The position numbers were made by a program, and so were the translations under genes. Shown piece after piece: positions 13,275 through 63,918 of a stretch of 64,000 nt of DNA. How positions within the stretch are numbered: position 1 is the first letter of the stretch; each line of letters starts with the position of its first letter. Origin of the DNA: Phreatobacter sp. (GTDB taxonomy: Bacteria; Pseudomonadota; Alphaproteobacteria; Rhizobiales; Phreatobacteraceae); the NCBI RefSeq assembly GCF_030691135.1, contig NZ_JAUYFA010000070.1, forward strand, positions 62,001-126,000. The letters are read 5' to 3'. The notes beneath the pieces are model-generated. The model was not told the origin of the DNA and did not search any database. It worked only from the letters and a program-made list of their open reading frames with translations.

Positions 13275-14699
13275 TCACGCCCCCGCGGGAAGCGCGTAGG
13301 GGCTCTTGTCGCGGGCGAGGAAGGAGCCGGCGCCCATGGCGCCGACGACCTTGCCCTCTTCGACGATGGTCTTGCCCCTGGCGATGGTCATGACCGGCCA
13401 GCCGGTGACGGCAAAGCCCTCCCAGGGGGTGTAGTCCGACCCGTGGTGGAGGATCTCCTGGCGGATCGTCTCCTTGCGGTTCGGATCCCACAGGACGATG
13501 TCGGCATCGGAGCCGACGGCGATCGTGCCCTTCTTCGGGTAGAGACCGTAGAGCTTGGCGTGGTTGGTGGAGGTCAGCGCGACGAATTCGTTCATGGTGA
13601 TGCGGCCCTTGGCGACGCCCTCGGACCAGAACACCGGCAGGCGCGTTTCGACGCCGGGAAGGCCGTTCGGAACCCATTTGAACGAGGTCCGGCCCTTGTC
13701 GTTCAGCTTGCCGCGCGGGCTGTCGTAGAAGAACGGGCAGTGGTCGGAGGAGAAGGTCTGGAAGACGCCCTGCTTGATCCCCTCCCAGATCGCCTGCTGG
13801 CTGTCGGTATCGCGCGGCGGCGGCGAGCAGACATATTTCGAGCCCGACATATCCATGTTCAGGCCCTTCATGTCGTCCTCGGTGAGGGTGATATATTGCG
13901 GGCAGGTCTCGGCATAGACCTTGAGGCCGCGCTGGCGGGCCCAGCGGATCTGCTCCATCGCCTCGCGCCCCGAGACGTGGACGATCATGATCGGCACGTC
14001 GAGCAGCTCGGCATGGCTGATGGCGCGGTGGGTGGCCTCGCGCTCGATCACCTGCGGCCGCGACGGACCATGATAATAGGGCGCCGTCTTGCCAGCCGCT
14101 TCCAGCCGCTCGGTCAGGAACTTGATGTTGTCGTAGCCCTCGGCATGGACCATCACCAGCGCCTGCTCGCGGCGCGCCACCTCGAAGACCTCGAGCAGCT
14201 GTCGGTCGGAGAGGACGAGGTCGTCATAGGTCATGAAGACCTTGAACGAGGTGCAGCCGTCGGCGAAGAGCGCCGGCAGTTCCTGGTTGAGGACCGTCGG
14301 CGTCGGGTCGGAGACGACGAGGTGGAAGCCGTAGTCGATATAGGCCTTGCCCTCGGCCTTGCGGTGATAGTCGCTGACGCAGGCGCGCAGGGATTCGCCC
14401 TTCACCTGCATGGCGAAGGGGATGATCGTGGTGTTGCCGCCGGCCGCGGCCGAGCGCGTGCCGCTCTCGAAACCGTCGGCCATGGTGATGTCGGGCCCCG
14501 AGGGCTGGTCGAGATGGACGTGGCTGTCGATGCCGCCGGGCATGACGAGAAGGCCCGAGGCGTCGATCATGCGGGCGGCCTCGGTGATGTTCTCGGCCAG
14601 CAGCGCCACCTTGCCGTTCCTGATGCCGACGTCGCAGCGGATCGTGTCGGAAGCCGTGACGACGGTGCCGCCGCGGATGGCGAGGTCGAGATCGAGCAT
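13275..14699 (-). CDS. hydA: Dihydropyrimidinase (D-hydantoinase)
   Basis: A 474-residue cyclic amidohydrolase that opens dihydrouracil, dihydrothymine or hydantoin rings in reductive pyrimidine catabolism. All metal ligands can be seen: HVHLDQP near residue 57, the carboxylated Lys in SFKVFMTYDD near 158, HAEGYD, VHVSG and the Asp of SDHCPFF. Length matches the family. The ATG at 14699 is preceded by a CCTCTC (GAGAGG) ribosome site. No preA/preT or beta-ureidopropionase neighbours are present, so the rest of the pathway must be elsewhere. Upstream lies the CtrA-box intergenic region. Confidence 0.92.
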   Translation of the reverse strand: MLDLDLAIRGGTVVTASDTIRCDVGIRNGKVALLAENITEAARMIDASGLLVMPGGIDSHVHLDQPSGPDITMADGFESGTRSAAAGGNTTIIPFAMQVKGESLRACVSDYHRKAEGKAYIDYGFHLVVSDPTPTVLNQELPALFADGCTSFKVFMTYDDLVLSDRQLLEVFEVARREQALVMVHAEGYDNIKFLTERLEAAGKTAPYYHGPSRPQVIEREATHRAISHAELLDVPIMIVHVSGREAMEQIRWARQRGLKVYAETCPQYITLTEDDMKGLNMDMSGSKYVCSPPPRDTDSQQAIWEGIKQGVFQTFSSDHCPFFYDSPRGKLNDKGRTSFKWVPNGLPGVETRLPVFWSEGVAKGRITMNEFVALTSTNHAKLYGLYPKKGTIAVGSDADIVLWDPNRKETIRQEILHHGSDYTPWEGFAVTGWPVMTIARGKTIVEEGKVVGAMGAGSFLARDKSPYALPAGA

Positions 14700-14835: not shown

Positions 14836-14876
14836 GAATCGGCGCCTGCAACGGGCGAGGTTAACCGGGGGTTAAC
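14836..14876 (+). promoter_or_regulatory. GANTC site and perfect CtrA box
   Basis: TTAA-CCGGGGG-TTAAC at 14861-14876 is an exact match to the CtrA box (TTAA-N7-TTAAC), the binding site of the cell-cycle master regulator CtrA. GAATC at 14836-14840 is a CcrM methylation site of the GANTC type. The box is 23-35 bases before the predicted small RNA and about 365 bases before rcdA, and about 160 bases upstream of hydA on the other strand. Confidence 0.75.
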
Positions 14877-14896
14877 CTTTCTCCTTTAACAAGAAA

Positions 14897-14991
14897 ATCG
14901 TTCAGTTCGCTGGACGCGAGTGGCTCCTGTCCACTCTGTTTGACGCCTCCCTGTATTCCACTTCAAGGCCGCCTTCGGGCGGCCTTTTTTT
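14897..14991 (+). ncRNA. Candidate small regulatory RNA with three stem-loops, CtrA-linked
   Basis: There is no coding frame here, but the sequence has the full anatomy of a trans-acting small RNA. Stem-loop 1 is at 14899-14916 (7 bp, UUCG tetraloop). Stem-loop 2 is at 14918-14936 (6 bp, loop CUCCUGU). A pyrimidine-rich single-stranded stretch with GCCUCCCUG follows, then a perfect 9-bp terminator at 14965-14986 with a T-run. The two CUCC-type motifs could pair with ribosome-binding sites, as in AbcR- or CuckooRNA-type sRNAs. The start near 14897 is guessed from TTTAAC (14885-14890) downstream of the perfect CtrA box. It may belong to a known rhizobial family such as EcpR1 or be new; this was not tested. 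Confidence 0.6.
14965..14991 (+). terminator. Strong Rho-independent terminator of the candidate small RNA
   Basis: AAGGCCGCC pairs perfectly with GGCGGCCTT around a TTCG loop (14965-14986) and runs into seven T residues. No protein gene ends upstream on this strand for nearly two kilobases, so it terminates a non-coding transcript. Confidence 0.85.
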
Positions 14992-15241
14992 CACGCCGAT
15001 CGGGGCTGTCTAGGCTCCCTCGCCGGTGCGGCAAATTCAGCCTTGGCACGGCCTTGATTTCATCGTCTCATCGCTTCCGTCGGCTGCGCCGTGTCCCGTT
15101 GCGGGACGGAACGGACTGGCACCGGCCTTGCTGCATCAGATCCGAGACCGCATTTCCACCGCCGTTTACCTTTCCTTAAGCAAACGCTTTACGCGGCGCG
15201 AGGACGGCGGCACACACGGGTTCTGAGGGAGTTTTAGCGTG

Positions 15242-15772
15242 ATGTCGCATGAGAGCGTTTCGCCGATCGCCGAGCCGACCGTCGCCTTCGGGGCGCGGCT
15301 CGCCAGCTCCCCCGCCTTCAAGGAGCTTTTCCGCGACGGCATGGGCCTCGTGGAAGAGACGGCGGCCTATCTCGACGGCCCCGGACGCGAGGAAAGCCGC
15401 GCCCTCGACCGCGGGCCGGCTCTCGCCTATGCGACCGAGAGCATGCGCCTGACGACCCGCCTGATGCAGCTCGCCTCCTGGCTGCTTCTGCAGCGCGCCG
15501 TCAACGAGGGCGAACTGACCCAGGAACAGGCGGCGCTGGAAAAGTCCAAGGTTCGTCTGTCGTCGGTCGGAGCGCCGACGCCGCTGTCGGTCATCGAGGA
15601 ACTGCCCGAGGCGCTCGGCAGGCTGATCGGCAAGGCCATGCGGCTGCAGGAGCGGATCATCCATATCGACCGCCTGCTGTTTACCCCGCAGCGCGATGCG
15701 GTCGACGCTCCGGTCAACGCCATTTCCAGCCAGATCGACCTCCTGACGAACGCCTTCGGCAAGCGGCGCTGA
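15242..15772 (+). CDS. rcdA: DUF1465 protein, RcdA-type protease adaptor
   Basis: A 176-residue helical protein of the DUF1465 family, whose founding member RcdA helps deliver the cell-cycle regulator CtrA to the ClpXP protease. The pattern FGARLASSPAFKELFRDGMG at the N-terminus and the DRGPALAYATESMRLTTRLM segment are typical; the C-terminus carries ISSQIDLLTNAFGKRR. ATG 15242 directly follows a GTG at 15239 that could also serve. The promoter region has a one-mismatch CtrA box (GTTTA-N7-TTAA, 15164-15179), which fits the known control of rcdA by CtrA. The upstream intergenic region also holds the candidate small RNA. Confidence 0.8.
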   Translation: MSHESVSPIAEPTVAFGARLASSPAFKELFRDGMGLVEETAAYLDGPGREESRALDRGPALAYATESMRLTTRLMQLASWLLLQRAVNEGELTQEQAALEKSKVRLSSVGAPTPLSVIEELPEALGRLIGKAMRLQERIIHIDRLLFTPQRDAVDAPVNAISSQIDLLTNAFGKRR

Positions 15773-19668: not shown

Positions 19669-19764
19669 GCCGGCTCCCGGTGCTCGGGAGCGGGCGGACA
19701 TGCCCGCATGGACTGATCCTCCTTGACCGCCGGGGCGCATGCGCCTATCCCGGTCGGCGGGACA

Positions 19765-19803
19765 TACCCCCCCAACGGGGTACGCCCATCTGTGAGGATG
19801 GAG
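19765..19803 (+). promoter_or_regulatory. Two-hairpin serC leader, second hairpin masking the ribosome site
   Basis: Hairpin 1 is TACCCC-CCCAAC-GGGGTA (19765-19782). Hairpin 2 is CCATC-TGTGAG-GATGG (19786-19801), whose 3' arm overlaps the GGAG ribosome site (19800-19803) of serC. The location and layout resemble the 'serC' leader motif described upstream of serC in Alphaproteobacteria (Rfam family), thought to regulate serC translation. Identity with that motif is my inference. Confidence 0.55.
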
Positions 19804-19809
19804 ATCCAA

Positions 19810-63902: not shown

Positions 63903-63918
63903 GTTAACCGCCCCTTAA
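63903..63918. promoter_or_regulatory. Perfect CtrA box before the last gene
   Basis: GTTAA-CCGCCCC-TTAA reads on the minus strand as TTAA-GGGGCGG-TTAAC, an exact CtrA box, 57-72 bases upstream of the start codon at 63975. Confidence 0.7.

Follow-up and report, generated by a model that had tools for sequence, protein, structure and literature searches.

A predicted CtrA box with a conserved place upstream of the BjrC1505 (RF02356) small RNA gene near rcdA in Phreatobacter sp.

The alphaproteobacterial cell cycle has CtrA as its master regulator, and to our knowledge only a small number of RNAs have so far been linked to this protein. BjrC1505 (RF02356) is an alphaproteobacterial small RNA (sRNA) family in Rfam that was reportedly described from Bradyrhizobium by Madhugiri et al. 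in 2012. Here we describe the BjrC1505 locus in a 64,000-nucleotide stretch of a Phreatobacter sp. genome (the window; contig NZ_JAUYFA010000070.1, positions 62,001 to 126,000), where it lies upstream of rcdA and carries a predicted CtrA box whose place is conserved among relatives. Two other alphaproteobacterial RNAs invite comparison. CcnA of Caulobacter, in the part of its report available to us (PMC8959179), is a noncoding RNA of 182 nucleotides with a CtrA box and a C-rich loop, is located at the replication origin and targets ctrA and gcrA. EcpR1 of S. meliloti (SmelC291), again from a partial source (PMC4414408), lies between divK-pleD and rpmG, pairs via the loop UCCGCCGCAUCU, and has a sigma-70 promoter and a response to guanosine tetraphosphate (ppGpp).

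A covariance search against Rfam gave RF02356 a score of 92.3 bits (gathering cut-off, 50), in an alignment that spans the whole model (positions 1 to 140), including the core GACGCCUCCCUG, and this is the only RF02356 match in the source genome. Judged by this match, the stretch is the BjrC1505 sRNA gene of this genome. It shares with the family the full-length match, the core GACGCCUCCCUGU, the terminator and the sequence of stem-loop 2, and differs in that the Rfam model begins inside what our comparison indicates to be a CtrA-box promoter. A preliminary description of this DNA had presented an unnamed candidate sRNA and had suggested a covariance search that included EcpR1; the RNA is in fact a member of a known family, and that family is not EcpR1. 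In the literature searched we found no function for BjrC1505, which is named there as a table entry only, while RF02356 is not named, and no identification of the S. meliloti name for its homologue. We also found no link between BjrC1505 and CtrA or rcdA in that literature, which under-represents subscription journals, so that novelty is not proven. The RNA family itself is already known; new here are the conserved upstream region with its CtrA box, the predicted start, the support from covariation and the evidence that sets the RNA apart from rcdA. Our best reading is that the gene probably encodes a CtrA-controlled, trans-acting sRNA directed against ribosome-binding sites.

The likeness to CcnA, compared by description from the partial source, is that CcnA is a precedent for a CtrA-regulated noncoding RNA and that the present RNA also has a CtrA box in its promoter region; the differences are the locus, the length and the described targets. 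EcpR1, as far as its partial source goes, is likewise a conserved Rhizobiales sRNA with a tie to the cell cycle, but its genomic location and its loop do not fit the present RNA, and we set the two apart on those two features. Identity with EcpR1 was dropped, since its stem-loop 1 (SL1) loop UCCGCCGCAUCU is absent by reading from positions 14897 to 14992 and the neighbors here are an amidohydrolase gene and rcdA instead. The MmgR/suhB RNA (RF00519) has the order CCUCCCU, ACUU and terminator in common with positions 14922 to 15000 (+), perhaps a shared module, but its match is below threshold (22.4 bits; cut-off, 41).

The RF02356 model covers the box region, and its hits are therefore biased toward loci that have a box. 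For this reason we gathered relatives with the pattern TTTGACGCCTCCCTGT-N6-16-GCCGC, which covers only the core and the terminator arm; this gave at least 117 stretches, 111 with 130 bases upstream and 6 without. Many of the matches listed are from Hyphomicrobiales/Rhizobiales, which from the relatives' names we take to be the order concerned, and Sneathiella lies outside that order. Among the matches listed, to which the counts for these relatives refer here and below, 107 of 111 have a TTAA-N7-TTAA with no more than one mismatch whose first base lies 92 to 77 bases ahead of the core; the match at this fixed place is perfect in 52 of 111, and shuffles average 0.3 perfect matches. The flanking stretches on either side of the box place contain a box with at most one mismatch in only 4 and 2 of the 111 listed loci. 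Perfect matches with other spacers are found anywhere in the 130 bases in 0 to 8 of them, and half-sites of equal composition are found at the box place in 0 to 6.

We also built a box-free model, which runs from ~12 bases before hairpin 1 through the terminator, and searched it against 385 genomes of the class. At an E value of 0.001 or better it matches 54 of these genomes, of which 49 lie outside the order; many of the matches are weak. The box is present in 21 of 25 out-of-order hits examined (10 perfect), compared with 1 of 123 upstream control windows; these hits are one per genome from 25 of the 49 genomes, several are of the same genus and so are not independent, one genome (G202) was in the training set of the model, and at least one hit (L395) looks spurious. 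It could be argued that a real sRNA merely happens to have an unrelated TTAA-rich stretch upstream, since promoters are AT-rich and one-mismatch TTAA pairs with other spacers are common nearby, and nothing further speaks for this. However, the perfect matches are specific to a spacer of 7 and to a single place, and distant relatives agree, which leaves chance co-occurrence extremely improbable. The pattern strongly suggests that the CtrA box is no chance match and is a conserved, promoter-placed element of the sRNA gene.

The position of the box relative to the RNA was examined in the 107 listed relatives that could be aligned on it. Their consensus is C-R-TTAAC-N5-R-TTAAGCTTTCC followed by T-A-T-N-A-C-T 26 to 32 bases from the box start. 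The distance from the box start to the first base of hairpin 1 could be measured in 102 of these loci and is 38 to 39 bases in 85 of them. We placed the start at hairpin 1 because it fits a -10 element at the T-A-T-N-A position, so that transcription would begin near position 14899. Since this start lies at hairpin 1, the first ~40 positions of the RF02356 model are probably promoter DNA and not RNA.

With this start, the center of the box is ~31 bases before the start of the RNA, over the expected -35 position. Such a position permits either sign of control, and its overlap with the -35 place is the point in favor of an alternative in which CtrA uses the box mainly to repress, with the conserved sRNA restricted to S phase, when CtrA is absent. 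This alternative overlaps with our best explanation and differs from it in the sign of control only. A search around the gene for a sigma-70-type pair gave none (0.0 are expected by chance too), which slightly favors an activator, and we regard control mainly by repression as unlikely. Control of this sRNA by CtrA in the cell, with activation as the more probable sign, is likely on the evidence of the conserved box.

The predicted RNA is unusually stable for its composition. Positions 14897 to 14992 fold at -35.7 kcal/mol, compared with a shuffle mean of -24.0 (z, -3.4), and 1 of 200 shuffles is as stable. Compensatory base changes, another check that the preliminary description had suggested, are present: both partners change in 9 of 18 pairs and 98.2% of the alignment cells pair, and neither value is reached by any of 500 shuffles. 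When the pair partners are slid along the alignment, pairing falls to 40 to 57%. Seven of the nine covarying pairs sit in hairpins 1 and 2. This alignment contains 31 of 50 nonredundant sequences (from 199), the 19 left out being mostly divergent; 6 of the 31 lost the 3' arm of the terminator because they were trimmed at an early T run, and the core and the terminator arm GCCGC are invariant in the pattern-collected set by selection, so that part of the terminator arm is fixed. The Rfam match, the covariation and the conservation of the box put the sRNA gene beyond chance, and they strongly suggest that the stretch is a real, conserved, structured sRNA gene. The box and hairpins of the preliminary description are thus kept in relatives; its GANTC site has no conserved position in the 111 listed relatives, and we dropped any role for it.

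The core is well kept in hits that were chosen by covariance. Exact GACGCCUCCCUGU and exact CUCCCUGU are found in 51 and 54 of 58 such hits (L001-L058; L024, counted as a CUCCCUGU miss, does carry CUCCCUGU), in 15 and 17 of 20 (L176-L195), and in 29 and 29 of 30 (L197-L226). In the weak hits of one family (L227-L246), the 13-base core GACGCCUCCCUGU is exact in 2 of 20 and CUCCCUGU in 18 of 20.

At an E value of 0.001 or better, RF02356 matches 53 of 61 near relatives, 331 of the 397 genomes sampled from the order, and 120 of the 151 genomes of a family that we take for Rhizobiaceae. None of 14 control genomes, Caulobacter vibrioides included, has an RF02356 match. Most of the order's sampled genomes have kept the sRNA, as have scattered representatives of other orders. 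Neighboring or multiple copies occur in one distant family (L053, L054, L384, and L387), in which G436 has two neighboring copies (C6:79514-79860) and G269 has three matches on two contigs.

The association with rcdA is strong. rcdA is found on the same strand at most 1.2 kb downstream in 89 of the 94 listed pattern-collected loci with at least 1 kb of downstream sequence, and in 41 of 54 loci of the same kind from the source genome, near relatives, and the class sample. A divergent quinone oxidoreductase gene is upstream in 52 of 95 listed pattern-collected loci and in 30 of 51 others. These figures are the first point in favor of an alternative in which the element serves as a 5' leader for rcdA, which CtrA would drive from this promoter, with the terminator acting as an attenuator open to override by some signal. 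Further points for it, from partial sources, are a predicted CtrA motif before rcdA in S. meliloti (PMC3616915) and several starts with a far-upstream possible CtrA site in agrobacteria (PMC10469942). In addition, the terminator arm GAGCCGC of many relatives could by reading pair with GUGGCUC, the 5' arm of stem-loop 2.

However, the RNA is not confined to genomes that have rcdA. rcdA is found in 56 of 61 near relatives, and in two genomes, G028 and G060, the RNA is matched while rcdA is not. In the family of G060 (f50) the RNA is present in 5 of 5 genomes (4 above the cut-off) and rcdA in 1 of 5; the four genomes of f50 without rcdA carry 4 to 9% estimated contamination, and the RNA match of G060 itself is below the cut-off, at 42.3 bits. 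Conversely, rcdA occurs without an RF02356 match in five genomes; by eye, three of these have a diverged copy before rcdA and two have none, and the diverged copy of G052 was also recovered by the box-free model. The possible antiterminator pairing is lost by reading where stem 2 has changed (L035 type), and a leader has no need for a kept unpaired core complementary to ribosome sites. The linkage is thus strong and not obligatory, and for that reason we favor an independent RNA and consider it distinctly unlikely, more so than control by repression, that the element is only an rcdA leader.

sRNAs commonly repress by pairing with ribosome sites, and the unpaired core CCUCCCUGU is the complement of such sites of the AGGGAGG type. 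In the CtrA-controlled sRNA that we favor, CtrA would bind the box at positions 14861 to 14876, centered ~31 bases before the start, and switch the promoter, most likely on; a transcript of ~93 nucleotides would be made from the BjrC1505 gene; its two small hairpins would frame the single-stranded core UUUGACGCCUCCCUGU; the core would pair in trans with AGGGAGG-type ribosome-binding sites; and the translation or stability of the paired messages would be lowered while CtrA is active. We infer transcription, CtrA binding and its direction, action in trans, and targets from sequence, and repression in trans at ribosome sites is plausible. The preliminary description had proposed two motifs against ribosome sites, and only one of these, the unpaired core, is well kept.

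The 9-mer complement ACAGGGAGG has 17 non-self places in the source genome, 7 of them at start-codon distance, and the genes behind these 7, judged by eye from their translations, encode transporter binding proteins, an acyl-CoA ligase, a thiolase-like protein, and an oxidoreductase. Across 12 genomes of the genus, 105 non-self ACAGGGAGG sites were examined among the matches listed, and 34 precede an open frame of at least 100 amino acids. Three gene groups recur between the source genome and a congener, and two of these also hold a paralogue-like member.

Several observations weigh against our reading. Few target genes recur, and ACAGGGAGG is not clearly enriched: with self sites included there are 18 occurrences versus 18 of the reversed pattern in the source genome, and 230 versus 211 in the 12 genomes of the genus. 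The motif itself is like a ribosome site, and ACAGGGAGG before start codons is expected on that ground alone; together with the lack of clear enrichment, this means that the search proves no target. In the RNA itself, the core shrinks to UCUCCCUGUU in most Rhizobium-like weak hits (L227-L240 and L243), which are below the Rfam cut-off and in most of which stem 2 is replaced; this diverged form retains the box, hairpin 1, and the terminator, and rcdA is near. The loop CUCCUGU, the second motif of the preliminary description, is replaced in distant relatives, e.g., L035, where stem 2 differs too. Across the class sample, RF02356 is matched in only 40 of 385 genomes, in 17 of them above the cut-off. 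Finally, with a tolerance of one mismatch over the whole 130 bases, TTAA pairs with other spacers turn up in 10 to 71 of the 111 listed loci, and the half-site ATTA with one mismatch gives 47 of 111. The one-mismatch controls are therefore loose, and the case for the box rests on its place and on the perfect matches.

rcdA was considered as a conserved target and dropped. At most 120 nucleotides upstream of the aligned (approximate) rcdA start, AGGGAG is present in 11 of 218 loci, GGGAG in 24, and any of GGAG, AGGA, or GAGG in 160. The preliminary description had suggested that a CtrA-tied sRNA beside rcdA would be a cell-cycle feedback element; the conserved box bears out the tie to CtrA, while specific feedback onto RcdA itself is not supported, given the rarity of AGGGAG and the presence of the RNA in genomes without rcdA.

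A CtrA box within the conserved upstream region of a widespread Rfam family leads to testable predictions about the timing of the RNA by CtrA and about the messages it silences, and makes BjrC1505 a candidate RNA branch of the alphaproteobacterial cell cycle that can be put to the test. Tentatively, BjrC1505 might be a CtrA output RNA of most of the order and of some lineages beyond it, which would translate CtrA activity into silencing of AGGGAGG-type messages (in this genus perhaps those of transporter binding proteins and acyl-CoA ligases) and so couple cell-cycle phase to uptake and growth, from a place beside the gene for the protein that brings the CtrA phase to a close; we consider this broader proposal possible but doubtful. 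There are also consequences for annotation: the RF02356 model probably includes promoter DNA, and a CtrA site predicted ahead of rcdA may, in many species, be that of the intervening RNA gene.

The features of the locus are collected in Table 1. The CtrA box, the GANTC site before it, the hairpins, and the terminator are all where the preliminary description had put them. Of its two neighbor names, rcdA is confirmed by the DUF1465 match, and hydA was its own label for a gene for which Pfam gives amidohydrolase only.

Table 1. Features of the BjrC1505 locus (positions in the window)
Feature	Position	Strand	Remark
Dihydropyrimidinase-like amidohydrolase gene	13275-14699	opposite	upstream neighbor; Pfam: amidohydrolase
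GAATC (GANTC site)	14836-14840		25 bases before CtrA box, start to start
Rfam RF02356 match as scored	14858-14992	+	first ~40 positions probably promoter DNA, not RNA
CtrA box, TTAACC-GGGGG-TTAAC = TTAA-N7-TTAA (TTAACCGGGGGTTAAC)	14861-14876	+	predicted; place conserved among relatives
-10-like element TAACAA, weak	14887-14892	+	putative placement; consensus of relatives TATNAC at equal distance from box
Predicted mature sRNA, ~93 nucleotides	14899-14991	+	start from box/-10 spacing, end from terminator
Stem-loop 1, 7 bp, UUCG loop	14899-14916	+	covaries
Stem-loop 2, 6 bp, GAGUGG-CUCCUGU-CCACUC	14918-14936	+	stem covaries; loop differs in distant relatives
Unpaired core UUUGACGCCUCCCUGU	14939-14954	+	presumed seed (anti-Shine-Dalgarno)
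Intrinsic terminator, 9-bp stem, UUCG loop, U7	14965-14991	+
rcdA (PF07323, DUF1465 = RcdA family)	15239-15772	+	downstream neighbor, conserved

In the window the 16-base pattern TTAAC-N6-TTAAC has a single site, which is the box of the sRNA gene (shuffles, 0), and the looser TTAA-N7-TTAA has two sites, the sRNA box and one at position 63904, with none in shuffles. This second box, TTAACCGCCCCTTAA (63904-63918, +), is ~65 bases ahead of a frame that starts near the window end, begins ...TTILICDD, and looks response-regulator-like by eye. A serC leader (RF00517) is also present at positions 19755 to 19806 (+), with a score of 58.4 bits that exceeds its Rfam cut-off.
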